A DNA stretch of 64,000 bases from Umezawaea tangerina (GTDB taxonomy: Bacteria > Actinomycetota > Actinomycetes > Mycobacteriales > Pseudonocardiaceae): the NCBI RefSeq assembly GCF_003002815.1, contig NZ_PVTF01000011.1:124001-188000 (forward strand), read 5' to 3'. The notes beneath the pieces were generated by a model, which was not told the DNA's origin, made no database searches, and saw only the letters and a program-made list of their open reading frames with translations. Every line of letters begins with the position of its first letter. Positions within the stretch are counted from its first letter, which is position 1. Of the stretch, positions 8,563 to 37,892 are shown one piece after another. Position numbers and translations under genes: made by a program.

Positions 8563-8565
8563 CGC

Positions 8566-11679: not shown

Positions 11680-11809
11680 GGCCGCCCCCGCTCGGAATCG
11701 TTCGGTTCTTCGACTCCGATGGTGCTCCGACCCGCGGGCGGACGACCCTGATCAGGCCGGCCGACACCCCAATGGCCGCCGGCGAGTGCCCGAAGGGGGG
11801 TGCGTGGAG

Positions 11810-11896: not shown

Positions 11897-11916
11897 GCCC
11901 ACCGACCGGACCGGGG

Positions 11917-11938
11917 CCTGCCCGTTGCCAGGGGCAGG
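11917..11938. terminator. Short hairpin between convergent genes
   Basis: CCTGCCC and GGGCAGG form a 7-bp stem with an 8-base loop. It lies 20 bp after the micro-peptide stop and before the end of the convergent GH127 gene. There is no clear U-run, so this is only a plausible terminator. Confidence 0.35.
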
Positions 11939-11988
11939 TCACCGGGCCGCGTCGGCGGGTGGCGGTTCCCAGCCGGACCGCACCGCGT

Positions 11989-23208: not shown

Positions 23209-23946
23209 ATGTCACTGACCGACAAGGCCATCGACCGCATCAGGGACCTGATCGGGTCGGGCGAGCTGTCGCCGGGGTCCAAGCTGCCGCCCGAGCAGCA
23301 GCTGGCGGCCGAGCTGGGGCTGTCCCGGAACCTGATGCGGGAGGCGGTCAAGGCGCTGGTGGTCGCGCGGGTGCTCGAGATCCGGCGCGGTGACGGCACC
23401 TACGTGACCAGCCTGGAGCCGGAGGTGCTGCTGGGCGGCATCTCCTCCGCCGTGGAGCTGCTGCGCGGCGACACCCTGCTCGAGATCACCGAGGTGCGCA
23501 GGCTGTTCGAGCCGGTGGCGACGGGGCTCGCCGCCACCCGCATCTCCGCAGGCGAGCTCTTCGAGGTCGAACAGCACCTGCACGCGATGCGGGCGGCGCG
23601 CGACGACGTCGAGCTGCTCAACCAGCACGACGCCGCCTTCCACCGCGCGGTCGTGGCCGCCACCGGCAACGCCACGCTGACGACCCTGCTGGAGGGCATC
23701 TCCAGCCGCACGGTCCGCGCGCGGGTCTGGCGCGGGCTGGTCGACGACAAGGCGGCCAGCCGCACCCTGGCCGAGCACGAGGCGATCTACGAGGCGCTGG
23801 TCCTGCGCGACGCCGGGCTCGCCCAGGCCGCCGCCCTCCTGCACATCAACACCACCGAGCGCTGGCTGCGCGAGCACGTCGGCCGCGACGCCGACCTCCT
23901 GCCCGACGCCGACCTCCCGGTCCTCCACCGGGGCGGCACCCGCTGA
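23209..23946 (+). CDS. GntR-family (FadR subfamily) regulator of the fucD operon
   Basis: 245 residues; ATG with GGGGAGAG upstream. The winged helix is at residues 5-70 (LPPEQQLAAELGLSRNLMREAVKAL, then RRGDGTYV). The FCD ligand domain follows with the metal-binding pattern of the family (LFEPVATGLAA, HDAAFHRAVVAATGN, LAEHEAIYEAL). It is divergent from fucD, so the natural targets are its own promoter and that operon. The ligand is probably a sugar acid such as L-fuconate or its keto-deoxy product, by analogy to other FCD proteins. It ends HRGGTR, convergent with the mutarotase gene. Confidence 0.9.
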   Translation: MSLTDKAIDRIRDLIGSGELSPGSKLPPEQQLAAELGLSRNLMREAVKALVVARVLEIRRGDGTYVTSLEPEVLLGGISSAVELLRGDTLLEITEVRRLFEPVATGLAATRISAGELFEVEQHLHAMRAARDDVELLNQHDAAFHRAVVAATGNATLTTLLEGISSRTVRARVWRGLVDDKAASRTLAEHEAIYEALVLRDAGLAQAAALLHINTTERWLREHVGRDADLLPDADLPVLHRGGTR

Positions 23947-24004: not shown

Positions 24005-24364
24005 TCACCCGGCGGGTGGTCCCGTGTCGGGGTCGTCCAGGTGCCAGACCTCGCGCATCGGCGCCCACCGGCCGCCGGAGCCGGGCTCGGCCAGCGGCTC
24101 CTGGCACGGGTCGGTGAACGTCCACCAGCGGCGGGTCTCCGGGTCGGCGGCGATGCGGGCCTGGTCGGCGGCGTGGTCGTCGCCGGTGTACTCGTAGTAG
24201 CCGAACAGCAGGTCGCCGTGCAGGAAGATCGTGAAGTTGCGGATGTTGGCGTCCAGCATCGTCCGTTCGACGGCGGGCCAGACCGCCGCGTGCAGCCGGA
24301 GGTACTCCTCGCGCCGTTCCGGCCGCAGCCCGATCACCATGCCGTAGCGCTGTGCGTCGCCCAT
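24005..24364 (-). CDS. L-rhamnose/L-fucose mutarotase (RhaM family)
   Basis: 119 residues, the usual length of PF05336 mutarotases. Characteristic features are YGMVIGLRPERREEYLRLH at the start, ANIRNFTIFLHGDLLFGYYEY in the middle and PETRRWWTFTDPCQEPL towards the end; the histidine of RLHAAVWP and the WW pair belong to the active site. It interconverts anomers of a 6-deoxyhexose, supplying the beta form to the sugar dehydrogenase. It is the last gene of the CUT1 transporter operon, 22 bp after the enolase-superfamily gene. The family does not separate fucose from rhamnose reliably by sequence alone. Confidence 0.88.
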   Translation of the reverse strand: MGDAQRYGMVIGLRPERREEYLRLHAAVWPAVERTMLDANIRNFTIFLHGDLLFGYYEYTGDDHAADQARIAADPETRRWWTFTDPCQEPLAEPGSGGRWAPMREVWHLDDPDTGPPAG

Positions 24365-24386
24365 GCGGGTCTCCTGGAGTGTCGGG

Positions 24387-25568
24387 TCAGGCGTTGAGGG
24401 CGGCGCCCGCGGCCTCCCGGCCCGCCTCGACCGGGTGCAGGCGGTGGCCCGCGCGTTCGGGCCGGATGTGCGCGCCGCCGGACATCGGGTGGGGGAGCAG
24501 GTGGACCGACGCGGCGATCGCGTCCTCGTCGATCCGCAGGCCGAGGCCGGGGCGGTCGCCGAGGACGAACGCGCCGTCCTCGACGTGGTGGTCGAGCACG
24601 ACGCCCAGCGCGGGTTCGAGGTCCTGGAGCTCGCTGACGAGGTGGTTGGGCACCGACGTGGCGGCGTGCAGCAGGCCGATCGGGCTGGTGCCGATGGGGC
24701 TGACGGGCAGGTCGTGGGCGTGCGCGAGGGTGGCGACCCGGAGGAAGTGGGTGATGCCCCAGACCGCGGCCGTCTGGACGACGTCGACCGCGCCCGCGGC
24801 GATGAGCGGGCGGTGCTGTTCGAGCCCGGTGAGGTTCTCGCCGGTGGCGACCGAGGCGCGGACGCCGCGGCCGACGGCGAGGTGGCCCTCCACGTCCCAG
24901 CGCCGGACCGGCTCCTCGACCCAGGTCAGGTCGAGCGTCCGCTCGATCTCCCCGACGTGGCGGACGGCCTGCTTGCGCGTCCAGGTCTCGTTGACGTCGA
25001 GCATCAGGCTCGGCCGCGCCCCGCGCCCCGCCTCGGTGAGCACGTCGCGGACCAGGGCGAGGCGGTGCCGGTCCCGGTCGACGTCGAGGCCCCCCTTGAC
25101 CTTCGCCGCCCGCAGGCCGCGGTCGGCGTAGGCCTGGTAGACCGCGACGAACTCGTCGTCGTCGAGCCCGATGTCCAGGCCGGAGGCGTAGGCGGGCACC
25201 CGGCGGTCGCGCCCGCCGAGCAGCCGCCACAGCGGTTCCCCCGCCGCCTGGGCCTTGATGTCCCACAGCGCGGTGTCGAGGGCGCCGATGGTGCCGAACA
25301 CCTGCCCCGCGTGCCCCGCCTTGAACGTCCGGCGCAGCATCCGGTCGTACAGGGCGGTCACGCCGCGCGGGTCCTCGCCCTCGATGGCGGCGAAGACGCT
25401 CTCGATCTCCACGTGCGGTCCGAGACCGACGCCGGTGAAGCCCGCGTCGGTCTCGACGACGACGATCGGCACCCGGACCCGGCCGTCGGCGTAGACGCCG
25501 TTGGCGTCGCCGATCGGTCGGCCCCAGTCCTGGACCGTCGTGAGGGTCCGGTACCCGGTGATGCGCAT
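24387..25568 (-). CDS. Enolase-superfamily sugar-acid dehydratase-like protein lacking the Asp-His dyad
   Basis: 393 residues. The barrel has the lysine pair Lys156/Lys158 (AAKVKGG) and metal ligands Asp191 (LMLDVNE), Glu218 or 219 (WVEEP) and Glu244 (ATGEN), as in the mandelate racemase group. The general-base dyad seen in FucD (Asp then His) is not visible: the equivalent strand reads VVQTAAVWGITHF and the next VSPIGTSP. So chemistry may rest on the lysines only, or on another residue. It sits between the CUT1 permease gene (1 bp gap) and the mutarotase, so a sugar acid or sugar lactone is the likely substrate. Reaction not assignable. Confidence 0.75.
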   Translation of the reverse strand: MRITGYRTLTTVQDWGRPIGDANGVYADGRVRVPIVVVETDAGFTGVGLGPHVEIESVFAAIEGEDPRGVTALYDRMLRRTFKAGHAGQVFGTIGALDTALWDIKAQAAGEPLWRLLGGRDRRVPAYASGLDIGLDDDEFVAVYQAYADRGLRAAKVKGGLDVDRDRHRLALVRDVLTEAGRGARPSLMLDVNETWTRKQAVRHVGEIERTLDLTWVEEPVRRWDVEGHLAVGRGVRASVATGENLTGLEQHRPLIAAGAVDVVQTAAVWGITHFLRVATLAHAHDLPVSPIGTSPIGLLHAATSVPNHLVSELQDLEPALGVVLDHHVEDGAFVLGDRPGLGLRIDEDAIAASVHLLPHPMSGGAHIRPERAGHRLHPVEAGREAAGAALNA

Positions 25569-25569
25569 G

Positions 25570-26397
25570 TCAGCCCTTCGTGGACCCGGCGGTGACGCCG
25601 TCGGCGATCTGGCGTTGCAGGAACAGGTAGACGACCAGGACGGGGATCGCGGCGATCAGCACGCCCGAGGCGAACGTGGGGATGTCGTCGGAGTACTGCC
25701 CGCGCAACGACGTGACGCCGACCATGAGCGTGCGGTGCTCGGCGGAGGGCATCATCAGCAGGGAGATCAGCACGTCGTTCCAGCAGAACAGGGCGTTGAG
25801 CACGCCCACCGACAGCAGCGCGGGGGCTCCGATCGGGAGCATGATCCGCCAGTAGACGCCGTACACGGTGTTCCCGTCGATGCGCGCGGCGTCGATGATC
25901 TCCGGCGGCACGGTCGAGTAGTAGCTCGCCATCAGGAAGATCGTGAACGGGAGGAACTGCGCCACGTACGCGAGCACGAGTCCGGGGTAGGTGTCGACGA
26001 GGCCGGTGTCCGCCATGATCCGCGCCAGCGGGACCATGATCACCTGGAACGGGACGAACAGCGCGGCCAGGATCCCGAGGAAGAGGGCCGAGGAGCCGCG
26101 GAAGCGCAGCCTGCCGAGCGCGAAGCCCGCCATCGACCCGAGCAGCAGCAACAGCGCGACCGAGCAGGCCACGACGACCACCGAGTTCAGGAAGTAACGG
26201 GACATCCCGACGCTCGTCCACGCCTTGACGACGTTGTCCAGGCGCGGGGAGTCGGTGAGCGAGAACCGGTCGAGGGTGTAGTCGCGCCGGGTCTTCATCG
26301 AGACGTTGGCGGTGAACAGCAGCGGGTAGATCGTGGCCAGCGCGAGCGCGGCCATCGGCACCGCGACGACCCACCTCGCCCAGCGGGTGCCCGACAT
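25570..26397 (-). CDS. Carbohydrate ABC transporter permease, MalG type
   Basis: 275 residues, six hydrophobic segments. The CUT1 EAA loop reads EIIDAARIDGNTVYGVYWRIMLP near residue 185. The start ATG shares its A with the stop of the upstream permease gene (TGATG). It pairs with the MalF-type protein to make the channel of a binding-protein-dependent importer. No ATPase is encoded in this operon; actinomycetes commonly use a shared MsiK-type ATPase encoded elsewhere. Confidence 0.9.
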   Translation of the reverse strand: MSGTRWARWVVAVPMAALALATIYPLLFTANVSMKTRRDYTLDRFSLTDSPRLDNVVKAWTSVGMSRYFLNSVVVVACSVALLLLLGSMAGFALGRLRFRGSSALFLGILAALFVPFQVIMVPLARIMADTGLVDTYPGLVLAYVAQFLPFTIFLMASYYSTVPPEIIDAARIDGNTVYGVYWRIMLPIGAPALLSVGVLNALFCWNDVLISLLMMPSAEHRTLMVGVTSLRGQYSDDIPTFASGVLIAAIPVLVVYLFLQRQIADGVTAGSTKG

Positions 26398-27365
26398 CAG
26401 TCCTCCTTCCCCGCGGCGCGGCGCAGCACGGCGATCTGGGCCAGTCCCACCACGAGCATGATCAGGAACAGGGCCGTCGACGCCGCGGAGGCGAGCGCGG
26501 GTCGGTTCATCTGCCCCTGCTGGGTCCAGATGTAGTACTCGGGCAGGTACGTCGAGCCCTCGGGTCCGCCGCTGGTCATCACGAACAGCAGGCCGAACAT
26601 CGAGGTGAGCATGCCGATCATGGTGGTGATGAAGACGAACTGGATCGTGCGGGACAGGCCGGGGACGATCACGTGCCGGATGGTCTGGGGCAGCGAGGCA
26701 CCGTCCACTTTGGCCGCGTCGAGCAGCGAGGAGTCGAGGGTGGCGAACCCGGCCAGGAAGACGACCAGCGCCATGCCGAAGGTGGCCCAGACGTGCACGC
26801 CGACGACGGCGAAGATGGCCACGTCGGGGTCGCCGAGCCAGTCCACCGGTCCGATGCCCAGGCCGCCGAGCAGCGAGTTGAGCGGACCGTCGTAGGCCAG
26901 CAGCAGGGTGAAGATCGCCCCGACGATCACCGGGGAGAGCACGGCGGGGAAGAAGTAGACGCCGCGGTAGAGCCGGTGCCCCGGCACCTTCAGGTGGATG
27001 AACGTGGCCAGCAGGCCGGGGATCGCGACGGCGACCGGGAGGAGCAGCACGAGCAGGCCGACGTTGCCCAGCGCCGTGCGGAAGAGCGGGTCGTCGAGGA
27101 GCGTGAGGTAGTTGTCGAGGCCGACCGCCGTGCCGTTGCGGTCGCCGTCGCCGGTGAACGAGAAGTTGATCCCCAGCAGCAGCGGCCACAACCGCAGCAC
27201 CACGATGACCAGGACGGCCGGTGCCACGAGGACGAGCGGCGCCAGGCGCTCCGCCCGCGACCCGACGCGGTTGCGCCGGGGCGGGGCGGTGGCCTGCGGT
27301 CGGACACCCGTGGTCGGGGCGGCCAGACCGCTGGGCGACAAGGACGGTGGGGCCACGTCGGTCAT
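26397..27365 (-). CDS. Carbohydrate ABC transporter permease, MalF type
   Basis: 322 residues; a basic N-terminal tail (RRNRVGSRAERL) then six membrane segments. The CUT1 loop is LLDAAKVDGASLPQTIRHVIVP. The start overlaps the binding-protein stop by 4 bp (ATGA), and its own stop overlaps the next permease start, so the three transporter genes are translationally coupled. Confidence 0.9.
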   Translation of the reverse strand: MTDVAPPSLSPSGLAAPTTGVRPQATAPPRRNRVGSRAERLAPLVLVAPAVLVIVVLRLWPLLLGINFSFTGDGDRNGTAVGLDNYLTLLDDPLFRTALGNVGLLVLLLPVAVAIPGLLATFIHLKVPGHRLYRGVYFFPAVLSPVIVGAIFTLLLAYDGPLNSLLGGLGIGPVDWLGDPDVAIFAVVGVHVWATFGMALVVFLAGFATLDSSLLDAAKVDGASLPQTIRHVIVPGLSRTIQFVFITTMIGMLTSMFGLLFVMTSGGPEGSTYLPEYYIWTQQGQMNRPALASAASTALFLIMLVVGLAQIAVLRRAAGKED

Positions 27366-28633
27366 CCCGTCGTGTCGGAGGCGGCCAGCTGCGCCACCGC
27401 GTCGTCGACGGTGGTCGACCCGCTGAGCAGCTGCTGGGAGAGCCTGCCCATGAGGTCCAGCGTCTTCGACGACAGCGCGACGTGCAGGGCAGGCTTGCCC
27501 GCCTTGACCTCTGAGACGATGGTCTTGACGGACGGGCCGCCCGCGGACACGTCGATCGAGGTGTCGGAGGTGATGGCGCCCCCGTCGGCGTAGAAGGTCT
27601 TCAGGGCGTCGGTCGAGGTCAGCGAGCGCACCAGGTCCGCGGCCAGCTTCGGGTCCTTGGTCCACTTGGCGACCGCGTAGCCGATGCCGCCGTCGTAGGG
27701 CAGGCTCGGCGTCGCCGCGGTGTTGACCACGGGCGCCTGCATGACGCCGATCTTGTCCGGGGCGATGAACTCGGCGAAGTCCTTCCAGTGCCCCACGTCC
27801 GACATCAGGCCGATGACGTTGGCGGCCTTGCCGGACTGGAACAGCGCGAACTCGTCGTTGAACATCGCGGTCGAGTTGACGCCGTCGTTGTTCAGGCCGG
27901 AGTCGCCCGCTTCCTTCCAGAGCTCGAAGATCCGCTTCACGTCCGGCGAGGTCCAGTTCCGCTTGCCCGCGACCCAGTCGTCGTACTCCTGCGCGGTCAG
28001 CGTCGCCGATCCCATGGCGGACAGGAAGAACTGGATGCCGTAGCCCTCCTTGTTGCCGAGGGCGAAGCACTTCGCGCCGGTCTTCTCGGTGATGGTGCCG
28101 CAGTTCTTGACGAAGTCGGCCCAGGTCTTGGCCGGGGCGTCCGGGTTCAGGCCCGCCTTCTGGTAGAGGTCCTTGTTGTAGTAGAACGGATGCCCCTGCA
28201 GGGTGACCGGTGCGGCGTAGACCTTCCCGGCCTTGCTGAACGCCTCCCAGCCCGCCAGCCGCTGCCTGTCCTCGGCGACGTAGGAGTCCAGCGGGGCGAG
28301 GGCGTCGGACCGGTCGCGGATCTGCCCGCCGCCGTTGAAGAGGATGACGTCGGGCCCCTTGCCGGACTGGATGGCCGTCCCGAGCAGCGTGTAGTACTGG
28401 TCGAACGGCTGGGCCACGAACTGCACGTCCACACCGGGGTGCTTCTTGGCGAAGTCGGCCTTGGCCTTCTCGACGTAGCCCGCCGCCTTCGCGTCACCGG
28501 ACTTCCAGTCCCAGACCACGAGCTTGTCGCCCGATCCGCCCGCCGGAGAACCCGGTCCGGCGGCACTGCCGCAACCCGCGGTCGCCATCAACCCCGCGAC
28601 CAGGACTGCGGACCACAGTGTGCGCTGCTTCAT
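27362..28633 (-). CDS. Extracellular solute-binding lipoprotein, CUT1 family
   Basis: 423 residues. Signal peptide and lipobox with Cys21 (ATAGCGSA). The fold is SBP_bac_1: LVVWDWKSGDAK near the start, KGPDVILFNGG, and YYNKDLYQKAGLNPDAPAKT. It is first in a five-gene operon with two permeases, an enolase-superfamily enzyme and the mutarotase. It is divergent from a GntR regulator over 142 bp. The substrate is probably a mono- or oligosaccharide containing a 6-deoxyhexose, by context. Confidence 0.88.
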   Translation of the reverse strand: MKQRTLWSAVLVAGLMATAGCGSAAGPGSPAGGSGDKLVVWDWKSGDAKAAGYVEKAKADFAKKHPGVDVQFVAQPFDQYYTLLGTAIQSGKGPDVILFNGGGQIRDRSDALAPLDSYVAEDRQRLAGWEAFSKAGKVYAAPVTLQGHPFYYNKDLYQKAGLNPDAPAKTWADFVKNCGTITEKTGAKCFALGNKEGYGIQFFLSAMGSATLTAQEYDDWVAGKRNWTSPDVKRIFELWKEAGDSGLNNDGVNSTAMFNDEFALFQSGKAANVIGLMSDVGHWKDFAEFIAPDKIGVMQAPVVNTAATPSLPYDGGIGYAVAKWTKDPKLAADLVRSLTSTDALKTFYADGGAITSDTSIDVSAGGPSVKTIVSEVKAGKPALHVALSSKTLDLMGRLSQQLLSGSTTVDDAVAQLAASDTTG

Positions 28634-28699
28634 TGCCGGCTCACTTCCCGAGAGGGTGTCGGGCGGTGGAGGGCCCGACGAGGTGCGGTGAACATAATT

Positions 28700-28714
28700 C
28701 GTATGACGTATGAC
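28700..28714. promoter_or_regulatory. Tandem CGTATGA repeats, candidate GntR operator
   Basis: CGTATGACGTATGACG, two head-to-tail 7-bp units in the divergent promoter between the CUT1 operon and the second GntR gene. The string TCGTATGACGT matches ten of eleven positions of the FadR-type consensus TNGTNNNACNA. It lies 62 bp before the regulator start and 67 bp from the binding-protein start. Confidence 0.5.
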
Positions 28715-28775
28715 GTCAACCGGCAGGAGTCAGTACACTCGCCGCACACCGAGGTGTGGACGAACCGGAGGACCG

Positions 28776-29537
28776 ATGAAGGCGCCAGGCAAAGAACCGA
28801 CCACCGCCCCGAGCTGGGCACGTCGGCCCGCGAACCTGGCCAGCGCGGTCACCGCCGAGCTCGTGGGGCGCATCGTGCGCGGCGACCACCCCGCCGGGAC
28901 GTCGCTGCCGCCGGAGCCCGCGCTGTGCGAGGCCTTCTCGGTGAGCAGGACGGTCGTCCGCGAGGCCGTGAAGGTCCTCCAGGAGAAGGGGATGGTCCAG
29001 GTGCGCCAGGGCGCGGGCACGCAGGTCACCCCGCAGGCGATGTGGAACACCCTCGACGAGGTGGTGCTCGGGGCCGTCGTCGCGGAGGACGAGACCCTGG
29101 GGGTGCTGGACGACCTGGTGGTCACCCGCCGGCTGCTCGAGTCGGACATGGCGCACGTCGCCGCCCGCACCGCCGACCAGGCCACCGTCGACGCGCTGCG
29201 CGCGCTCGTGGACCGCATGGACGAGCTGGTGGAGGACCCGCTCGCCTACCGCGAGCAGGACCGGCTCTTCCACGACACGGTCATGCGGACCTCCGGCAAC
29301 CGCATCGCCAGGGGGGTGGTGCGCGCGCTGGAGAGCCAGGTCGGCAACACGGCCCGCTACATGGGCCGGACCGACCGGGACCTGTGCGCGGCCTCCAACC
29401 AGGGGCACCGCCGCATCTACGAGCGGATCGCGGCGCGGGACCCGGCGGGTGCCGCCGAGGCCATGTCGACCCACATCACCGAGGCCTGGCTCGTCCGCCG
29501 CAGCGACGCGGGGGAACCGGGCCGCCTCGAACGCTAG
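28776..29537 (+). CDS. GntR-family (FadR subfamily) regulator of the second sugar operon
   Basis: 253 residues; GGAGG just before the ATG. The winged helix has LPPEPALCEAFSVSRTVVREAVKVL and VRQGAGTQVTP; the FCD domain has TRRLLESDMAHVAA, DRLFHDTVMRTSGN and GHRRIYERIAARD. It differs in sequence from the first GntR protein and has its own candidate operator. It lies between the divergent CUT1 operon and the forward fucose-oxidation operon (86 bp before the SDR), so it could control both. Confidence 0.9.
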   Translation: MKAPGKEPTTAPSWARRPANLASAVTAELVGRIVRGDHPAGTSLPPEPALCEAFSVSRTVVREAVKVLQEKGMVQVRQGAGTQVTPQAMWNTLDEVVLGAVVAEDETLGVLDDLVVTRRLLESDMAHVAARTADQATVDALRALVDRMDELVEDPLAYREQDRLFHDTVMRTSGNRIARGVVRALESQVGNTARYMGRTDRDLCAASNQGHRRIYERIAARDPAGAAEAMSTHITEAWLVRRSDAGEPGRLER

Positions 29538-29623
29538 GCCCCCAGACCGGTCGGCGGACAAAGGTCCCGCCGACGCGGACCACACCGGCAGGTCGAACGA
29601 AGCGGACGAACGGAGCGGACTCC

Positions 29624-30376
29624 ATGGGTGAACTCGACGGACTGGTGGCACTGGTCACCGGCGGCGGCTCGGGCATCGGACGCAGCACGGCCGAGCTGCT
29701 GGCCGAGCGCGGGGCGCGGGTCGCCGTGCTCGACCTGGCGGCGGACGACCTGCCGGAGGGCGTGCTGCACGTCCGGGCCGACGTCACCGACGACGGGAGC
29801 GTCCGCGCCGCCGTGGAGACCGTGGTCGGCCACTTCGGCGGCCTCGACATCGTGGTCAACAACGCGGGCATCGGGGCGCAGGGCGACGTGACCGCCGCGA
29901 CCGACGACGAGTGGCTCCGGGTGTACGACGTCAACGTCGTGGGGATGGCCAGGGTGACCCGCGCCTGCCTGCCGCACCTGAGGAGGTCCAGCGCCGCCGC
30001 CATCGTGAACACCGGCTCGATCGCGGCCACCGCGGGCCTGCCGCAGCGGGCGGTCTACTCGGCGAGCAAGGGCGCGGTGCACGCGATGACCCGCGCGCTC
30101 GCCGCCGACCACGTGCGGGAGGGCATCCGGGTCAACGCCGTCGCCCCCGGCACCGCCGACACGCCGTGGGTGCGCAGGCTCCTCGACTCGGCACCGGATC
30201 CGCGGGCCGAGCGCGCCGCGCTGGAGGCGCGGCAGCCGCACGGCCGCCTGGTCACCGCCCAGGAGATCGCCGCCGCGATCGCGTACCTCGCGAGCCCGTC
30301 GTCCGGCTCGACCACGGGTACCGTGCTCGCCGTCGACGGCGGCATGGACGCGCTCCGGCTGCGTCCCCGCACCTGA
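29624..30376 (+). CDS. SDR dehydrogenase, probable 2-keto-3-deoxy-L-fuconate 4-dehydrogenase
   Basis: 250 residues, classical short-chain dehydrogenase. The cofactor loop is TGGGSGIG near residue 12, NNAG follows near residue 88, the catalytic Ser is in NTGSIAA and the Tyr-Lys pair is YSASK. An Asp at the end of the second strand (VLDLAADDL) indicates NAD preference. In the L-fucose oxidative route an SDR oxidises 2-keto-3-deoxy-L-fuconate at C4. Co-location with the FAH-family hydrolase that uses the diketo product supports this. An alternative is L-fucose 1-dehydrogenase, but the aldo-keto reductase next door fits that better. Confidence 0.75.
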   Translation: MGELDGLVALVTGGGSGIGRSTAELLAERGARVAVLDLAADDLPEGVLHVRADVTDDGSVRAAVETVVGHFGGLDIVVNNAGIGAQGDVTAATDDEWLRVYDVNVVGMARVTRACLPHLRRSSAAAIVNTGSIAATAGLPQRAVYSASKGAVHAMTRALAADHVREGIRVNAVAPGTADTPWVRRLLDSAPDPRAERAALEARQPHGRLVTAQEIAAAIAYLASPSSGSTTGTVLAVDGGMDALRLRPRT

Positions 30377-30393
30377 CCGGGAGGCGAGCGACC

Positions 30394-31359
30394 ATGACGA
30401 CCGACCCCCTGCCGCGGCTGGGACTGGGCACCTCCCCGCTGGGCAACCTCTACACCGCCGTGACCGACGACCAGGCCCGCGCCGTGGTCGACGCCGCGTG
30501 GGACGAGGGTGTGCGCACCTTCGACACCGCTCCCCACTACGGGCTGGGGCTGGCCGAACAGCGCCTCGGCGCGGCGCTGGCGGACCGACCGCGCTCGGAG
30601 TACGTGCTGTCCACCAAGGTGGGACGGCTGCTGGTGCCCGACCCGTCCGGGGCCGGGCGCCTGGACGACGACGGGTTCGTGGTCCCGGCCACCCTGCGCC
30701 GCGTGTGGGACTTCAGCGCGGACGGGGTGCGGCGCTCGCTGGAGTCCTCGCTGAGCCGCCTCGGGCTCGACCGGGTGGACGTGGTCTACGTGCACGACCC
30801 GGACGGCCACGCCGACCAGGCGGTGGCCGAGGCGGTGCCCGCGCTCGTGGAGCTGCGCGAGCAGGGGGTGTTGGGGGCCGTGGGCGTCGGGATGAACCAG
30901 TGGCAGCTGCCCGCCCGGTTCGTGCGGGAGTCCGATGTGGACGTCGTCATGCTCGCGGGTCGCTACACGCTGCTGGAGCAGCCCGCGCTGGCCGAGTTCC
31001 TGCCGCTGTGCGCCGAACGCGGGGTCGACGTCGTCATCGCCGGGCTGTTCAACTCCGGGCTGCTGGCCCGCCACGACGTCCCGGACGACGCCACCCACGA
31101 CTACCGGGCGGCGCCCGCCGGGCTGGTCGACCGCGCCCGGCGGATCGCCGCGGTCTGCGCCCGGCACGGCACGACCCTGCCCGCCGCCGCGCTGTGGTTC
31201 CCCTTCGGGCACCCGGCGGTGACCGGCGCCGTCGTCGGGGCTCGCACCGCTCAGGAGATCCGGGCGAACGTCGCCGCGCTCACCACCCCACCACCCGCCG
31301 GGCTGTGGGCGGACCTGCGCGCCGAGGGCCTGCTCGCGGCGGGCGCGCCTACCCCCTGA
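30394..31359 (+). CDS. Aldo-keto reductase, probable L-fucose (aldose) 1-dehydrogenase
   Basis: 321 residues. AKR features: RLGLGTSPLGNLY at the start, the catalytic Asp/Tyr region FDTAPHYGLGLAEQRLG near residue 47, Lys in STKVGRLL, and VYVHDPD in place of the usual HxPD. This matches the bacterial L-fucose dehydrogenase / D-threo-aldose 1-dehydrogenase branch rather than reductive AKRs. It would oxidise the sugar at C1 to the lactone, the substrate of the lactonase three genes on. GGGAGG precedes the ATG; the SDR stop is 17 bp upstream. Confidence 0.8.
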   Translation: MTTDPLPRLGLGTSPLGNLYTAVTDDQARAVVDAAWDEGVRTFDTAPHYGLGLAEQRLGAALADRPRSEYVLSTKVGRLLVPDPSGAGRLDDDGFVVPATLRRVWDFSADGVRRSLESSLSRLGLDRVDVVYVHDPDGHADQAVAEAVPALVELREQGVLGAVGVGMNQWQLPARFVRESDVDVVMLAGRYTLLEQPALAEFLPLCAERGVDVVIAGLFNSGLLARHDVPDDATHDYRAAPAGLVDRARRIAAVCARHGTTLPAAALWFPFGHPAVTGAVVGARTAQEIRANVAALTTPPPAGLWADLRAEGLLAAGAPTP

Positions 31360-31409
31360 CCACACCCGGCGACGACCCGAACAGCTTCGACACGGATGAG
31401 GAGCGCGGA

Positions 31410-32255
31410 ATGCGACTGCTGCGAGTTGGAGACCCCGGTTCGGAGGTCCCCGTCGTGCTGGACGAGTACGGTCGGGCCAGGGACCTGCGGCCGGTCACGG
31501 CCGGGATCGGCGGCGACTTCCTCGCCGACGACGGCGTGCGCCGGGTGCGCGACGCGCTGGACGGCCTGCCCGCGTTGGACATCACCGGGATGCGGGTCGG
31601 CGCTCCAGTCTCCCGCCCCGGCGCCCTGGTGTGCATCGGGCTCAACTACTCCGACCACGCCGCCGAGACGGGGGCGCGGCCACCCGCCGAGCCCGTCGTG
31701 TTCATGAAGGCCACCAACACCGTCGTCGGACCGGACGACACCGTGCTGATCCCCAGGACGAGCACGACCACCGACTACGAGGTGGAGCTGGCGGTCGTGC
31801 TGGGAGCGACCGCCCGCTACCTGGACAGCCCGGACGACGCGGCGGCGGTCATCGCGGGCTACGCGATCTCCAACGACGTCAGCGAACGCGACTTCCAGCT
31901 CGAACGCGGCGGCCAGTGGACCAAGGGCAAGTCCTGCGAGACGTTCAACCCGCTGGGGCCGTGGCTGGTCACCGCCGACGAGGTCGGCGACCCGCAGTCC
32001 CTCGGGCTGCGGCTGAGCGTCAACGGCGAGCCGAGGCAGGACGGCAACACGAAGAACATGCTGTTTGGCGTCCACCACGTCATCTGGTACCTCAGCCAGT
32101 TCATGGTCCTCGAACCCGGCGACGTGGTGAACACCGGCACGCCCGCCGGGGTGGGGCTCGGCGTCAACGACTTCGGCTACCTGCGCGAGGGCGACGTCGT
32201 CGAGCTGGGCATCGACCGCCTCGGCGGCCAGCGGCAGCGGATCGGGCAGGCGTGA
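31410..32255 (+). CDS. FAH-family hydrolase, probable 2,4-diketo-3-deoxy-L-fuconate hydrolase
   Basis: 281 residues of the fumarylacetoacetate hydrolase family. Signature elements: IGLNYSDHAAETG near residue 74, FMKATNTVVGP, the metal-binding DYEVELAVVLG with Glu pair, YAISNDVSERDFQ, and GDVVNTGTPAGVGLG. Members next to L-fucose or L-rhamnose dehydrogenases cleave 2,4-diketo-3-deoxy acids to pyruvate and L-lactate. The start at 31410 has GAGGAGCG upstream. Its stop overlaps the lactonase GTG (GTGA), so the two are coupled. Confidence 0.85.
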   Translation: MRLLRVGDPGSEVPVVLDEYGRARDLRPVTAGIGGDFLADDGVRRVRDALDGLPALDITGMRVGAPVSRPGALVCIGLNYSDHAAETGARPPAEPVVFMKATNTVVGPDDTVLIPRTSTTTDYEVELAVVLGATARYLDSPDDAAAVIAGYAISNDVSERDFQLERGGQWTKGKSCETFNPLGPWLVTADEVGDPQSLGLRLSVNGEPRQDGNTKNMLFGVHHVIWYLSQFMVLEPGDVVNTGTPAGVGLGVNDFGYLREGDVVELGIDRLGGQRQRIGQA

Positions 32256-33103
32256 CCGCGGTGCGCCGGATCGACGCCCACCAGCACCTGTGGGACCTCG
32301 CCGCCCGGCCGCAGGACTGGCTGGCCGGGCTGGAGCCCATCCGCCGCGACTTCCACGAGGCCGACCTGCGCGCGGCGACCGGTGCCGCGGGCATCGACGC
32401 CACCGTCCTGGTCCAGGTCCTCCCCGACGTCGAGGAGACGGCGGAGTTCCTGGCCCTGGCGGGGGAGTCCGACCTGATCTCGGGAGTCGTGGGGTGGGTC
32501 GACCTCACCGCGCCCGACGTCGCCGAGCAGCTGGACCGGCTGCGCCGAGGGCCCGGCGGCGACCGGCTGGTCGGCGTCCGGCACCTGGTGGAGCCCGAGC
32601 CGGACCCGGAGTGGCTGACGCGCCCCGACGTGCTCGCCGGACTGCGCGCGGTGCGCGACGCCGGGCTCGTCTACGACGTGCTGACCCGCCCCCACCAGCT
32701 GCCCGCGGTCGTGGCGGTGGCGAAGGCGTTGCCGGACCTGGCTTTCGTGCTGGACCACCTGTCCAAACCGGACATCGCGGGTCGGGTGCTCGAACCGTGG
32801 GCGGCCCGGCTGGCGGAGCTCGGCGCCCTGCCCAACGTGGTCGCGAAGGTGTCCGGTCTGGTGACCGAGGCGGGGCCGCGGTGGACGGTGGACGACCTGC
32901 GGCCGTTCGTCGACGTCGCGCTGGAGGAGTTCGGCCCGTCCCGGCTGATGGTCGGCACCGACTGGCCGGTGTGCCTGCTCGCCGCGTCCTACGCCGAGGT
33001 CCTCGACTCCGCCCGGCGGATGACCGACGACCTGACCGCCGCCGAGCGGGACCAGGTCTTCGGCGGCACCGCCACCCGCGTCTACCGGTTGGAGGACCGC
33101 TGA
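32252..33103 (+). CDS. Amidohydrolase-2 family L-fuconolactonase
   Basis: 283 residues from a GTG. Metal and active-site residues of the COG3618 lactonase group: RIDAHQHLWD (HxH) at the start, VGVRHLVEPEPD with the His, FVLDHLSKPDI, and GTDWPVC near the C-terminus. These enzymes open L-fucono- or L-rhamnono-lactones. Its place directly after the diketo-acid hydrolase and in an operon with an aldose dehydrogenase supports L-fucono-1,5-lactone. Its stop shares one base with the LarA start (TGATG). Confidence 0.85.
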   Translation: MTAVRRIDAHQHLWDLAARPQDWLAGLEPIRRDFHEADLRAATGAAGIDATVLVQVLPDVEETAEFLALAGESDLISGVVGWVDLTAPDVAEQLDRLRRGPGGDRLVGVRHLVEPEPDPEWLTRPDVLAGLRAVRDAGLVYDVLTRPHQLPAVVAVAKALPDLAFVLDHLSKPDIAGRVLEPWAARLAELGALPNVVAKVSGLVTEAGPRWTVDDLRPFVDVALEEFGPSRLMVGTDWPVCLLAASYAEVLDSARRMTDDLTAAERDQVFGGTATRVYRLEDR

Positions 33104-34374
33104 TGGACACCGTGCGCCTCGCCTACGGGGAGACGGGCCTCGACCTGCGCTTCGACCCCGCGGTCACCACCATCGTGACACCCCGGCACCACCAGGCCGC
33201 CGAACCGCCGCGGGAGCTCCTGCGGCGGGCGCTGCGGTCACCGGTCGCGGGCCCACCGCTGCGGGAGCGCGTGCGGCGCGGCCAGACCGTGGCGATCTCC
33301 GCCTGCGACATCACCCGTCCGCAGCCGCGCGAGCTGATGATCCCGGCGATCCTGGAGGAGCTCGACGGGCTGGTCGACCCCGGCGACGTCGTGGTGCTGG
33401 TCGCGACCGGCACCCACCGGGGCAACTCCGAGGCCGAGCTGCGCGCGATGTTCGGCGACGAGGTGGTCGACGCGGTGCGGATCGTCAACCACGACTCCCG
33501 CGACCGCGCGAGCCTGACGTGGCTGGGCGAGTTCGGCGCGGGCGTCCCGGTGTGGCTCAACAGCGAGTGGGTCGACGCGGACGTGCGCATCACCACCGGG
33601 TTCGTCGAACCGCACTTCTTCGCGGGGTTCTCCGGCGGCCCGAAGCTGGTCGCCCCCGGCCTCGCCGCGCTGGAGACGGTGCTGGTGCTGCACGACGCGC
33701 GCCGGATCGGCCACCCGCGCGCGACGTGGGGGATCATCGAGGGCAACCCGGTCCACGACGACGTGCGCGCCATCGCGGAGGCCACCGGCGTGACCTTCGG
33801 CTTCGACGTGGTGCTGAACCAGGACAAGGAGGTCGTCGCCGCGTTCGGCGGGGACATCCTCGCGATGCACGCCGAGGCCGTGCGCACGGCCCGCGAGGTC
33901 GCCATGCGGCCGGTGCCGCGGCTGTTCGACGTGGTCGTGACCACCAACTCCGGCTACCCGCTCGACCAGAACCTCTACCAGTCGGTGAAGGGCATGTCCG
34001 CGGCCTACCGGGTGGCCAAGCCCGGCGGTGTGATCGTCTGCGCGGCCGAGTGCCGCGACGGCTTCCCCGACCACGGCTCCTACCGCGAGGTCCTGGCCTC
34101 CGCCGACTCGCCCGCGGCGCTGCTGGCGGAGATCTCCGCGCGCACGGTCACCGTGCCGGACCAGTGGCAGGTGCAGATCCAGGCGCGCATCCAGAACGAC
34201 TGCCGCGTGGTCGTGCACACCTCGCACCTCAGCGACGCCGAGCTGGCGACCGCGCACCTGCGGCAGACCGCGGACGTCTCGGCCACCGTGGCCGAGGCCC
34301 TGGCCGCGGCCGGTCCGGGGGCCCGCCTGTGCGTGCTCCCCGAGGGCCCGCAAACGATCCCGTACGTCGCCTGA
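33103..34374 (+). CDS. larA: LarA-type nickel-pincer racemase (lactate racemase or sugar-acid epimerase)
   Basis: 423 residues. All key residues of Lactiplantibacillus LarA are present with a constant offset of three: His105 (ATGTHRG), His171 and Lys181 (EPHFFAGFSGGPK), and His197 (VLVLHDARRIGH), matching His108, His174, Lys184 and His200. The lysine carries the pincer nucleotide covalently and His197 binds nickel. The DITRPQP segment is also conserved. The start overlaps the lactonase stop by one base. L-lactate, made by the hydrolase two genes upstream, is the obvious substrate. The wider LarA family also includes 2-epimerases of sugar acids, so an aldonate epimerase is an alternative. Confidence 0.88.
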   Translation: MDTVRLAYGETGLDLRFDPAVTTIVTPRHHQAAEPPRELLRRALRSPVAGPPLRERVRRGQTVAISACDITRPQPRELMIPAILEELDGLVDPGDVVVLVATGTHRGNSEAELRAMFGDEVVDAVRIVNHDSRDRASLTWLGEFGAGVPVWLNSEWVDADVRITTGFVEPHFFAGFSGGPKLVAPGLAALETVLVLHDARRIGHPRATWGIIEGNPVHDDVRAIAEATGVTFGFDVVLNQDKEVVAAFGGDILAMHAEAVRTAREVAMRPVPRLFDVVVTTNSGYPLDQNLYQSVKGMSAAYRVAKPGGVIVCAAECRDGFPDHGSYREVLASADSPAALLAEISARTVTVPDQWQVQIQARIQNDCRVVVHTSHLSDAELATAHLRQTADVSATVAEALAAAGPGARLCVLPEGPQTIPYVA

Positions 34375-34386
34375 GGAGGAACCGGC

Positions 34387-35070
34387 ATGGTTGGACAGGA
34401 CGCGGTCGACCTCGGGTTCGCCAGGGTCGACGTCGACCGCGAAGCCCGCCAGGGGCTGCCCGAGGTGGTCTACGGCACCGGCAAGACACCGGGCCAGGTC
34501 GTCGAGATCGTGCGGACCCTGTTGCGGCACAACGACGGTCCCGTGCTCGTCACCCGCGTGGACCCGACCGCGGCGACCTCCGTGCTGCGGGCCGTCCCGG
34601 CGGGCGAGTACGACAGCGGGGCGCGGTTGCTGGTGTGGCGCCCGGCCGCGCCGACGGGGTTCAGCGTGGTCGTGGCCGCCGCGGGCACCGCCGACCGGCC
34701 GGTGGCCCACGAGGCGGCCGCCGTGGCCACCGCGGTGGGGATCGGCGTCACCACCGTCACCGACGTCGGCGTGGCGGGTCTGCACCGGCTGCTCGCCGAA
34801 CGGGACCGGTTGCGCGCCGCGGACACCGTCATCGTCGTCGCGGGGATGGAGGGAGCGCTGGCGAGCGCGGTCGGCGGCCTGGTCGCGTGCCCGGTGGTCG
34901 CCGTGCCGACGTCCACCGGCTACGGCGCGGGCTTGGAGGGCATCACGGCGCTGCTGGCGATGCACGCGTCCTGCGCGGCGGGCATCACGGTGGTGAACAT
35001 CGACTCCGGGTTCGGGGCGGCGATGGCCGCGTTCCGGCTGTCCCGCGTGGCGCGCCGGGGGACGACGTGA
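34387..35070 (+). CDS. larB: LarB, nicotinate-adenine dinucleotide carboxylase/hydrolase of pincer cofactor synthesis
   Basis: 227 residues. The C-terminal half is PurE-like, with VAGMEGALASAVGGL, PTSTGYGAG and the conserved HASCAAGITVVNID holding Cys196, the residue thought to attach NaAD covalently. The N-terminal DLGFARVDVDREARQG and VVYGTGKTP are also LarB hallmarks. GAGGAA precedes the ATG. It is 12 bp after larA and overlaps larC by 4 bp. It makes the first pincer intermediate from NaAD. Confidence 0.92.
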   Translation: MVGQDAVDLGFARVDVDREARQGLPEVVYGTGKTPGQVVEIVRTLLRHNDGPVLVTRVDPTAATSVLRAVPAGEYDSGARLLVWRPAAPTGFSVVVAAAGTADRPVAHEAAAVATAVGIGVTTVTDVGVAGLHRLLAERDRLRAADTVIVVAGMEGALASAVGGLVACPVVAVPTSTGYGAGLEGITALLAMHASCAAGITVVNIDSGFGAAMAAFRLSRVARRGTT

Positions 35071-36215
35071 GCCGGGTCTGCGTCATCTCGCCGTTCACCG
35101 GGCTGGCCGGGGACATGCTGCTGGCCGCGCTGGTCGACGCGGGCGCGCCGCTGGAGGCCGTCCGCGCCGCCGTGGCCGACACCGGTCTGAGCGGCTGGGA
35201 CCTGACGGTCGAGCGGGTGCTCACCCACGGGCTCACCGGCAGCCGCGCCGTCGTGTCGGTGACCGACGACGCCACGAGCCGCGGCGCGGGCGAGCTGATC
35301 GCCATGGCGGACCGGGTGCGCGACCGGGTGGTGGCCGACACCGCGGTCGCGGCGCTGAAGGCCATCGCCGAGGTCGAGGGGCACCTGCACGGCGAGGACC
35401 CCGATCTGGTGCACCTGCACGAGCTCGGCGGTCACGACACCCTCGTGGACGTCGTCGGAGTGGTCGCCGCCCTGCGCGCGCTGGACGTGCGGACCGTCCA
35501 CTGCGAGGCGCTGCCGATCGGCTCGGGGACGGTCCGCACGGCCCACGGCGTGCTGCCCTGCCCGGCTCCGGCGACCTCGGCACTGCTGCGGGGCGCGCTC
35601 GTCGTGGGCACCGACCTGCCCGGCGAGACCGTGACGCCGACCGCCGCGGCGCTGCTGCGCGCGCTGGGGGCCGACTACCACCCGGCGCCGGAGATGCGGA
35701 TGGAGGCGACCGGCTACGGCGTGGGCACGCGCACCCTCCCGGACCGGCCCAACGTGGCGGTGGTCCGGCTCGGCGACCGGGCGGTCGCGGACGTGCGCGA
35801 CCTCGTGGTGCTGGAGACCAACCTCGACGACGTGACGGGGGAGGTGCTGGGCCACCTCCTCGCCCGCCTGCTCGACGCGGGCGCGCTGGACAGCTGGATC
35901 ACCCCCGTGGTGATGAAGAAGGGCAGACCGGGGCACGTGCTGCACGCCCTGGCCACGCCGGAGACCGCCGACGAGGTCGAGCGGCTGATGTTCGCCGAGT
36001 CGGGCACCCTCGGCGTGCGGCGCACCGGGGTGAGCCGCACCGCCCTGCCCCGGACCACCGACACCGTGCACCTGCACGGGATGCGGGTGCGGCGCAAGCA
36101 CGGACCGCACCACAGCAAGGCGGAGTACGAGGACGCCGTCGCCGTCGCCCGGCGCACCGGTCTGCCGCTGCGCCTGGTGCTGGCCATGGTCACCGACCTC
36201 CCCGAGGAGCCCTGA
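35067..36215 (+). CDS. larC: LarC, CTP-dependent nickel insertion protein (single ORF)
   Basis: 382 residues from a GTG that overlaps the larB stop (GTGA). Features of the family: the start SPFTGLAGDMLLAALVDAG, the HLHELGGHDTLVDVVG block near residue 120, ETVTPTAAALLRAL, VLETNLDDVTGEVLGHL, and VVMKKGRPGHVLHAL. The gene is one continuous frame, unlike the larC1/larC2 arrangement of Lactiplantibacillus, which needs ribosomal frameshifting. It installs nickel in the pincer nucleotide. Its stop shares one base with larE. Confidence 0.92.
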   Translation: MSRVCVISPFTGLAGDMLLAALVDAGAPLEAVRAAVADTGLSGWDLTVERVLTHGLTGSRAVVSVTDDATSRGAGELIAMADRVRDRVVADTAVAALKAIAEVEGHLHGEDPDLVHLHELGGHDTLVDVVGVVAALRALDVRTVHCEALPIGSGTVRTAHGVLPCPAPATSALLRGALVVGTDLPGETVTPTAAALLRALGADYHPAPEMRMEATGYGVGTRTLPDRPNVAVVRLGDRAVADVRDLVVLETNLDDVTGEVLGHLLARLLDAGALDSWITPVVMKKGRPGHVLHALATPETADEVERLMFAESGTLGVRRTGVSRTALPRTTDTVHLHGMRVRRKHGPHHSKAEYEDAVAVARRTGLPLRLVLAMVTDLPEEP

Positions 36216-37024
36216 TGAGCACCGCTGCCACCGCCGCACGGCTCGTGACCCACCTGGAGGCGATCGGCCCGCTCGCCGTGGCGTTCTCCGGCGGCGCCGA
36301 CTCCGCCCTCGTGCTCGCCGCCGCCGTGCGCGCCCTCGGCCCCGCGGCGGTGCTCGCGGTCACCGCCGACTCGGCGAGCCTGGCCGCCGCCGAACTGGCC
36401 GCCGCGGTGGCGTTCGCCCGCGACCTGGGCGTGCGGCACGCGGCGCCGGAGACCGGCGAGCTGGACAACCCCGACTACGCGGCCAACGGCCGGGACCGCT
36501 GCTACTTCTGCAAGTCCACCGTGCTGGACGCCATCACCGCGGTCGCTCGGGACAACGGGCTGGCGGCGGTGGCGACCGGGACGAACGCCGACGACGCGCG
36601 CGACCCGTTCCGGCCCGGCATCCGCGCCGGTGACGAGATCGGCGTGCACACCCCGTTGCGCGACCTCGGGATGAGCAAGGCCGAGGTCCGCGGCGTGAGC
36701 GCGTTCTGGGGACTGTCCACAGCAGACAAGCCCGCGCTGCCGTGCCTGGCGAGCCGGGTGCGCTACGGCGTGGCGATCACCCCGGCCCGCCTGGCCAGGG
36801 TGGAACGCGCCGAGGTCGCCGTCCGCGCGTGGCTGGCGGACGCGGGCACGCCGACCAGGGACCTGCGCGTGCGCGACCTCGGCGACGTCGGCCGCGTCGA
36901 GCTCGACCCGCACCTGGCCGAGGTGCCCGTGATCCGGGAGGCGCTGACCGGGATCGTCCGCGAGGCGGGGTTCGACGGCGCGGAGCTGGCGGTGTTCCGG
37001 TCGGGGGCGCTCAACCACGAGTGA
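36215..37024 (+). CDS. larE: LarE, ATP-dependent sulfur transferase for pincer cofactor
   Basis: 269 residues. The PP-loop SGGADS is at 25-30. The sacrificial cysteine is Cys177 in KPALPCLASR, matching Cys176 of Lactiplantibacillus LarE, so this is the single-cysteine, self-consuming type rather than a three-cysteine iron-sulfur type. A CxxC (CYFCK at 96-100) is also present. It sulfurates the carboxylated nucleotide made by LarB. The ATG overlaps the larC stop (TGATG), completing the coupled set larA-larB-larC-larE. No LarD channel gene is seen. Confidence 0.92.
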   Translation: MSTAATAARLVTHLEAIGPLAVAFSGGADSALVLAAAVRALGPAAVLAVTADSASLAAAELAAAVAFARDLGVRHAAPETGELDNPDYAANGRDRCYFCKSTVLDAITAVARDNGLAAVATGTNADDARDPFRPGIRAGDEIGVHTPLRDLGMSKAEVRGVSAFWGLSTADKPALPCLASRVRYGVAITPARLARVERAEVAVRAWLADAGTPTRDLRVRDLGDVGRVELDPHLAEVPVIREALTGIVREAGFDGAELAVFRSGALNHE

Positions 37025-37199: not shown

Positions 37200-37892
37200 T
37201 CATTCCTCGACGGCGCCGCCGACCCGGCGGAGGTGGCGGCGGAAGCTGTAGGTCGGGTCGGCGGCGCGGCGGGCCAGGTAGTCGTCGAACGCGGTCTGCC
37301 GCCGGAGGGTGTCGCCCGCCTTGATCCGGTCGGCCTGCGCGCGCTCGGTCTCCCAGATCCGGCGCGCGGTGGCCAGGACCTCCTCGACGCGGTCGGCGGC
37401 GACGAACAGCACGCCGTCCCGGTCGCCGAAGACGATGTCGGCACCGGTCGCGGTGTGCGGGCCGAACCTGGCGTCCGCCAACGCCTCAGGCTCCTGCGGG
37501 TCGAGCCTGGTCGGGCCCGCGGGGTAGCTGCCGTAGCTGAACACCGGGACCCCGATGTCGACCAGCTCCGGGGTGTCGCGGTGCAGGCCCCAGACCACCA
37601 GCCCCGCCACGCCGGACGCCCTGGCCTCCAGCACCGCGAGGTCGCCGACGCACGCCTCGTCCGACCGGCCCGCGTTGTCCACGACCAGCACGTCACCCTC
37701 CTCGGCCCGGCCGTAGGCCTCGAGGAACACGTCCACGCTGCCGTAGTGGCGGGCGGGGAGCACGCGCCCGGCGACCCGGTGGCCCGGCGTGACCGCGGCG
37801 ATGCCGGGCGGCGCGAGGCGCAGGGGGACGTCGAGCCGGACGCAGGCGTCGGCCACCAGCGGTGTGGACAGGTCGGTGAAGGCTTGCAGCAC
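37200..37892 (-). CDS. RraA-like family protein (possible class II pyruvate aldolase)
   Basis: 230 residues. The RraA/HMG-aldolase fold is indicated by [15 protein letters not shown] at the start, [38 protein letters not shown] and the key GLHRDTPEL, where the Arg-Asp pair normally binds substrate and metal. Members cleave 4-hydroxy-2-oxo acids to pyruvate; others only bind RNase E. At the edge of a sugar-acid catabolic island an aldolase for a 2-keto-3-deoxy acid is attractive but unproven. It is convergent with larE across 175 bp that hold nothing I recognise. Confidence 0.75.

Follow-up and report, generated by a model that had tools for sequence, protein, structure and literature searches.

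Umezawaea tangerina (Actinomycetota, Pseudonocardiaceae) carries a complete nickel-pincer racemase system, larA with its cofactor genes larB, larC and larE, in one operon with genes of a sugar oxidation route predicted to release a 2-hydroxy acid. The operon occupies positions 29624-37024 of the window, the stretch of 64,000 nucleotides analysed here (assembly GCF_003002815.1, contig NZ_PVTF01000011.1, positions 124,001 to 188,000). The tie between LarA and such a route, which the initial annotation of the window had drawn, extends to other genomes: LarA stands among sugar genes at 49 of 142 distinct loci. Moreover, a glycerate kinase gene directly adjoins larA in a number of relatives. We propose that the three-carbon acid set free by the route is what LarA racemises: chiefly L-glycerate, where the sugar is of the L-galactose type, and in second place L-lactate. 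We put the probability of this reading at about 55%.

Taken singly, LarA, the genes for its cofactor and the fucose route belong to kinds already known. What is new is that LarA is attached in a conserved manner to an acid-releasing L-fucose/L-galactose route and that it recurrently pairs with glycerate kinase; neither was found in the literature searched, which included few subscription journals. The same search found neither the phrase "glycerate racemase" nor a paper joining glycerate, lactate racemase, glycerate kinase and nickel. According to the authors of PMC11770544, the physiological significance of the glycerate and 2-hydroxybutyrate activities of LarA is still to be determined. The recurrent pair offers a testable role for LarA and a fate for L-glycerate. 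If true, our proposal would explain why some actinobacteria spend nickel and three cofactor enzymes on sugar use.

The larA operon

The operon consists of eight genes on the forward strand. The first encodes a short-chain dehydrogenase/reductase (SDR; 29624-30376), a probable type 2 L-2-keto-3-deoxyfuconate 4-dehydrogenase with 4dqx as its best solved relative (192 bits). It is followed by an aldo-keto reductase (AKR; 30394-31359), a probable L-fucose/L-galactose 1-dehydrogenase that comes closest, among solved structures, to L-galactose dehydrogenases (122.8 bits), by a FAH-family hydrolase, probably of 2,4-diketo-3-deoxy acids (31410-32255; 258 bits to 8gsr, an L-2,4-diketo-3-deoxyrhamnonate hydrolase), and by an amidohydrolase-family lactonase, probably of the L-fuconolactonase type (32252-33103; 164 bits to 4dlf). 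The remaining genes are larA (33103-34374), encoding a predicted nickel-pincer nucleotide (NPN)-dependent short-chain 2-hydroxyacid racemase, larB for cofactor synthesis (34387-35070), larC for nickel insertion, which starts with GTG (35067-36215), and larE, encoding a sulfur transferase (36215-37024). From the FAH gene through larE the junctions are GTGA, TGATG, 12 bp, GTGA and TGATG. Gene calls on the window bear out the genes, coordinates, orientations and junctions of the initial annotation, so that its operon stands; an L-fuconate dehydratase (FucD) gene, an ATP-binding cassette (ABC) transporter and a GntR gene farther upstream had been overlooked. A scan for promoters and terminators detected no terminator and, of promoter-like sites, a single weak one. 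The genome comprises 10.7 Mb in 34 contigs, and the Pfam Lar_N model matched once in it at E <= 0.001.

The hydrolase and the lactonase score strongly, below the curated cut-offs, on the models for diketo-deoxy-rhamnonate hydrolase (NF053535, 315.4 versus 500) and fuconolactonase (NF052480, 233.4 versus 400). R142 and R203 of the SDR align with R170 and R231 of 4dqx, so both arginine ligands are kept; PMC11199699 places 4dqx by the type 2 L-2-keto-3-deoxyfuconate 4-dehydrogenases and names these two residues as ligands.

LarA among sugar genes in other genomes

We compared 158 stretches, namely the window, 64 from genomes of the family, the best 80 of one pattern scan and 13 from genomes of the class; the class sample held 15 LarA genomes, of which our own and the fragment G757 were left out of the fetched stretches. 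A full, stop-free LarA was present in 153 of the 158 (excluded were L093, L094, L095, L166 and L174), and dropping 11 identical ones left 142 distinct loci, a non-random sample. Sugar context was defined as at least two of six markers at set identity limits, and the stretches compared differ in length. The 49 loci so defined were supplemented manually with L040, and these 50 sugar-context loci underlie the tree, residue, glycosidase and oxidase-homologue counts. Identity bands for FAH and FucD refer to matches within the E-value limits of the searches. At lower-GC loci simple open reading frames were used, and LarA was not placed in 6 of 93.

LarA was detected in 62 of 390 family genomes at E <= 1e-30, where the 62 include G166, whose frame is split, and G358, whose match is only 32% identical, and in 15 of 394 class-sample genomes, our own counted, at E <= 1e-40. 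The pairing with the lactonase, which the initial annotation had proposed to look for in other genomes, is conserved: in addition to the count of 49 loci in sugar context, LarA lies within 200 bp of a lactonase gene at 40 of the 142. The sugar-context loci comprise rearranged operon types, and a FAH gene is present in 42 of the 49. This rules out an adjacency unique to this genome as well as one that arose by chance. Hosts of sugar-context LarA include Lentzea, Streptomyces, Streptacidiphilus, Streptosporangium, Herbidospora, Microbispora, Labedaea and a Chloroflexi bin. In a LarA phylogeny built with FastTree, many forks of which are open, sugar and non-sugar context switch at least 12 times.

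Two operon types recur in relatives. Type A has the arrangement found here at 24005-37024. Type B starts with ABC transporter genes, SDR and FucD, often followed by a GntR gene, and continues with FAH, AKR, lactonase, LarA, LarB, LarC and LarE; its composition varies.

Where the best FAH protein is at least 72% identical to that of the window, LarA is found in 30 of 30 family genomes, compared to 3 of 40 in which FAH is more distant but above the E-value limit. FucD (E <= 1e-100) occurs in 244 of the 390 family genomes, which rules out that LarA merely accompanies FucD. In eight LarA-less genomes with close-type FucD operons (76-79%), the fetched stretches, that of L215 being only 5.4 kb long, contained no FAH, LarA, AKR or kinase match, one SDR match (34%) and one lactonase match (35%). 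FAH is present in all eight other LarA-less FucD operons (L218-L225) and hence does not require LarA. Alpha-L-fucosidase (GH29) or GH95 genes are found in 18 of 141 LarA loci (window excluded), 10 of them among 49 sugar loci.

Glycerate kinase beside larA

In many relatives a gene lies between larA and larB (cluster f12) which encodes a glycerate kinase; its representative in L036 scores 420 bits on PF02595 and 378.5 on TIGR00045. A glycerate kinase gene directly adjoins larA on the same strand, at a distance of 12-263 bp, in 16 of the 142 loci, or in 17 if L188 is counted, where a permease gene lies in between. A match in L134, 7.7 kb from larA and on the opposite strand, was excluded from the count. 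Linked kinases occur in both sugar-operon types. In pairwise comparison those of L080, L089, L155 and L188 share no more than 33-41% identity with the main linked type, and on the LarA tree the linkage changes at least seven times, gains and losses taken together. The kinase is absent from all 16 fetched LarA-less FucD stretches. A phylum-wide scan found the glycerate kinase family in 172 of 296 genomes and is uninformative for the pairing with LarA.

Sugar markers are absent from L080 and L188. L080 has the order LctP-LarA-kinase-LarE-LarB-LarC (8318-12364) and L188 the order kinase-LctP-LarA-LarE-LarB-LarC (9416-13759); their permeases score 417.1 and 455.2 bits, above the cut-off of 341.15 of TIGR00795. 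Judged by gene content, permease, racemase and kinase would suffice for the use of glycerate and not of lactate, and both loci are candidate minimal glycerate-utilisation operons.

Paralogous sugar operons

Among the genomes with two FucD matches, four with a double set of operons were picked by hand (G160, G075, G128 and G092). Their second operon (L218-L221) again contains FAH, FucD, SDR, AKR and lactonase genes. Identities between its products and their counterparts in the LarA operon range over 49-71%, except that in G092 the LarA stretch gave no AKR to compare. LarA and the kinase are both missing from the second operon in all four genomes. G061 has LarA operons of both types. Between these two operons the sugar enzymes are 55-82% identical (SDR 66, AKR 55, FAH 73, lactonase 82%) and the proteins of the racemase block 89-98% (LarA 98, kinase 89, LarB 96, LarC 97, LarE 94%). 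The block has thus been copied between the two operons, as expected if it acts on a common end product. In G006, which has no LarA at E <= 1e-30, an operon of this kind (L223, a stretch without lactonase match) is followed by lutA- and lutB-like genes, the LutB scoring 453.1 bits against a cut-off of 444.8; it is the only one of eight such loci where this was seen.

LarA and its cofactor enzymes

LarA of the window exceeds the curated cut-off of the lactate racemase model NF033504 (546.9 bits versus 460). It stays below that of the malate racemase model NF052593 (LarAH6/Mar2; 319.9 versus 500) and far below that of the hexonate-epimerase model NF052594 (LarAH groups 18-20; 18.8 versus 500). 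LarB (NF033503, 257.1 versus 175) and LarE (TIGR00268, 267.9 versus 150) pass their cut-offs, and LarC combines both parts, LarC1 (TIGR00299, 158 versus 90) and LarC2 (NF052512, 127 versus 50), in one open frame.

Residues D69, R72, H105, H171, K181, H197, Y292, Q293 and K296 are invariant in the 142 aligned LarA proteins. Letter matching to the Lactiplantibacillus plantarum numbering printed in PMC7583248, with Isosphaera pallida LarA and 2yjg as the sequences aligned, gives an offset of -3 for D72, R75, H108, H174, K184 and H200, of -2 for Y294, Q295 and K298, and of -3 for W358. The constant offset claimed for the signature residues in the initial annotation thus holds inside the first block and breaks beyond it. 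The substrate pocket contains F172, F173, V295, W355 and Q356. A pair of phenylalanines together with bulky hydrophobic residues is the signature of lactate racemases, while a gluconate epimerase has small polar or negatively charged residues (PMC7583248); the invariance of this pair is partly built into our set, since 80 of its loci were found with the pattern PHFFAGFS. At position 356, 132 of the 142 proteins have Q and the other 10 have E; all 50 from sugar context have Q. LarAH43, which also has Q here, shows a kcat/KM of 114 x 10^3 M-1 s-1 for glycerate and 83 x 10^3 for lactate, and every lactate racemase assayed in the same work also racemises glycerate (PMC11770544). The broad I. pallida LarA likewise has Q at this pocket position (PMC11851776).

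Proposed role and alternative explanations

From gene content, protein families, residues and linkage we infer the reactions, the sugars and the in vivo substrate of LarA as follows. The cluster would import L-fucose as well as L-galactose, which differs by a 6-hydroxy group, and oxidise both through the diketo route without phosphorylation. A mutarotase, the AKR as 1-dehydrogenase, the lactonase, the dehydratases (FucD and a second one), the SDR as 4-dehydrogenase and the FAH hydrolase would act in this order, the last one releasing pyruvate together with an L-hydroxy acid made of the three bottom carbons. With L-fucose this acid would be L-lactate, with L-galactose L-glycerate, the latter judged from the shape of the sugars. 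The nickel-pincer cofactor would be supplied by LarB, LarE and LarC, and LarA would equilibrate the L-hydroxy acid with its D form. The step most in need of LarA may be the conversion of L-glycerate to D-glycerate, which a glycerate kinase could then feed into glycolysis; the kinase gene lies beside larA in relatives, and in this genome one of two kinase genes elsewhere would take its place. L-lactate is probably racemised by LarA as well. For the known non-phosphorylating L-fucose route, pyruvate and L-lactate are the end products, and a type 1 4-dehydrogenase has a kcat/KM 5.3 times lower for the intermediate derived from L-galactose than for that from L-fucose (PMC11199699). In mammals L-galactose yields L-lactate and glycerate, as stated in the title of Chan 1979, a paper cited by PMC13406643.

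Racemisation of a three-carbon acid is favoured by the linked kinases, the sugar-free loci L080 and L188, the presence of LarA in only one of two paralogous operons and the conserved block of G061. Several observations weigh against L-glycerate as the main substrate. The operon of the window has no glycerate kinase gene, the two kinase genes of the genome lie elsewhere and their products share just 37 and 47% identity with the linked type, and 125 of the 142 LarA loci have no linked kinase. That the linked kinase needs D-glycerate is our assumption. Among 49 neighbour proteins scanned for families at non-sugar loci (47 of 69 direct neighbours, the others being for the most part lar, lactonase or short genes, and two more L118 genes), we found one glycerate kinase, one lactate permease and three GlcF-type CCG domain proteins. 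The alpha-L-fucosidase genes near LarA point to L-fucose and hence to lactate. FucD is single in this genome at E <= 1e-100, and the LarA operon must therefore also serve L-fucose, if L-fucose is eaten. The genome has three full matches to the broad FMN_dh family, two neighbouring LUD_dom matches and six FAD-oxidase_C matches, so both forms of lactate may be oxidisable anyway. FAD-oxidase homologues occur in 5 of the 142 LarA loci, all non-sugar (L133, L141, L148, L149 and L170), mostly together with GlcF/LutA-like genes, which fits lactate or glycolate; several more distant LarA adjoin GlcF-, FAD-oxidase- or LctP-like genes, and LctP itself belongs to a lactate/glycolate permease family. Finally, Q356 does not discriminate between substrates, since the broad I. 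pallida LarA has it too. Given the missing kinase, the fucosidases, the oxidase genes and the single FucD, we keep lactate as a second substrate and moderate the glycerate reading. A bolder version, to which we give somewhat less than even chances, holds that LarA is a dedicated glycerate racemase, that its operon is the L-galactose paralogue of an L-fucose operon, and that pairs of LarA and glycerate kinase, whether sugar genes accompany them or not, constitute a new module of L-glycerate catabolism; the nickel-pincer cofactor would then serve to salvage the half of an L-sugar that has the wrong handedness.

The most serious alternative, though in our view rather unlikely, is that LarA converts L-lactate derived from L-fucose to D-lactate for a D-specific dehydrogenase, its glycerate activity being incidental. 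This was one of the two roles suggested in the initial annotation, and it keeps a place beside ours: LarA passes the lactate racemase model, L-lactate is a known end product of the route (PMC11199699), fucosidase genes accompany LarA, the six FAD-oxidase_C matches could include a D-lactate dehydrogenase, and a few more distant LarA have LctP or FAD-oxidase genes nearby. Yet the relatives point at least equally to L-glycerate, with a kinase beside larA at 16 of 142 loci and homologues of this genome's FMN_dh proteins at none, and a role on lactate only leaves this kinase unexplained. L-lactate is perhaps oxidised directly by products of the FMN_dh and LUD_dom genes, FucD is far commoner than LarA, one LarA-less fucose operon adjoins lutAB-like genes, and homologues of the LutA, LutB, FMN_dh and FAD-oxidase queries used were found at none of the 50 sugar-context loci. 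The other role suggested initially, C2 epimerisation of one of the pathway's aldonates (such as L-fuconate or L-galactonate) that would broaden the range of accepted sugars, has become very improbable. It fits the closeness of larA to the lactonase gene, and some short-chain racemases slowly epimerise 4-deoxy-threonate (PMC11770544). LarA, however, scores only 18.8 bits on the hexonate-epimerase model, its pocket has F-F and W instead of the loop of gluconate epimerases (E-V/S; PMC7583248), and the block is common to operons with different dehydratases, was exchanged between diverged sugar operons, and also stands with kinase and permease alone. Equally small is the chance that the kinase serves D-arabinose, through glycolate, glyoxylate and tartronate semialdehyde to D-glycerate, while LarA acts on lactate only: the title of Chan 1979 (reference list of PMC13406643) states that D-arabinose yields glycollate by this route in mammals, but the kinase abuts larA even in operons without sugar markers. 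That LarA with LarB, LarC and LarE is a general salvage module for short hydroxy acids from the environment, which merely sits in a sugar operon, we likewise regard as a slim prospect. Although 93 of the 142 LarA loci have other contexts, and 21 of 56 with LarA initially called had no operon neighbour, start and stop codons overlap in the operon of the window, and LarA follows the close FAH type in 30 of 30 genomes.

Upstream blocks and flanking genes

The operon is preceded by a gene for a GntR-family regulator (28776-29537, forward), whose matches are below curated cut-offs. Beside it lies a divergent block on the reverse strand with genes for a rhaM-type sugar mutarotase (24005-24364; PF05336, 100.3 bits), a second enolase-superfamily sugar-acid dehydratase (24387-25568; PF13378; 127 bits to the nearest solved relative 2pp0, an L-talarate/galactarate dehydratase) and a second sugar ABC transporter with two permeases and a binding protein (25570-28633), the permeases being assigned from gene order and translation.

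Farther upstream a second block contains genes for a sugar ABC transporter, also on the reverse strand: a permease (17984-18979; 88% identical to the permease in relatives' FucD operon over a homologous stretch), an ATPase (19002-20507; Pfam ABC_tran; 85% to relatives) and a ribose-type sugar-binding protein (20527-21582; below all curated cut-offs). These are followed by FucD (21621-22928, reverse) and a GntR/FCD regulator of the block (23209-23946, forward; Pfam GntR and FCD). With 667.1 bits to the L-fuconate dehydratase 1yey_A and 91% identity to FucD of L035, the sequence at 21621-22928 encodes a true L-fuconate dehydratase. The window thus combines the upstream half of a type B operon, minus its SDR, with all of type A; the genus mate L032 shows the same combination in part.

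Downstream, convergent with larE, lies a RraA-like gene (37200-37892, reverse; PF03737, 83.4 bits), which might encode an aldolase or decarboxylase of the operon's regulon.

Further contexts of LarA

L066, L067 and L068 contain lactonase-LarA pairs near a GH95 glycosidase gene; the stretches include neither FAH nor larB, larC and larE as a full set. In the Chloroflexi bin (L163) three enolase-superfamily matches, 22-25% identical to the dehydratase of the window, flank LarA; SAR202 Chloroflexi have large sets of enolase-superfamily genes, and their growth is enhanced by fucose and rhamnose (PMC10444878). In L074, L075, L076, L078, L079 and L087 LarA directly follows a gene of the 5-formyltetrahydrofolate cyclo-ligase family and an SDR gene. 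In Nocardioides and Marmoricola (L118 and L122; families scanned in L118) it comes after genes for a two-component pair of the MadS/MadR type and for an ErcA-like iron alcohol dehydrogenase. In Geodermatophilus obscurus (L123, 11349-14794) three genes come after LarA, one resembling D-threonate kinase (sub-cut-off), one for a PdxA-type dehydrogenase and one with a weak Lar_N match, possibly a C2 epimerase module for threonate or erythronate.

Comparison with known systems

LarA of L. plantarum with LarB, LarC and LarE (5huq, 6c1w) has the same cofactor system, the same catalytic residues, the F-F loop and the W of the pocket. In contrast, LarA of the window is encoded in a sugar oxidation operon, has Q at the position of T359, and is joined in relatives by a glycerate kinase. 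Another enzyme with Q at position 359, compared by its description in PMC11770544, is LarAH43 of Enterocloster asparagiformis, which is best on glycerate and lactate and to which that paper assigns no physiological role. The best solved relative of our LarA is the broad short-chain racemase of I. pallida (9eia, 268 bits), which shares W and Q of the pocket but has L-M in the loop where LarA of the window has F-F. With route 3 of non-phosphorylating L-fucose oxidation (FucA, B, C, F and G; PMC11199699) the cluster shares the enzyme family at each step, only probably so for the lactonase and the hydrolase, and the arrangement in one cluster. Compared to that route as described there, where no racemase is named, the window adds LarA, and the candidate 1-dehydrogenase is an AKR.

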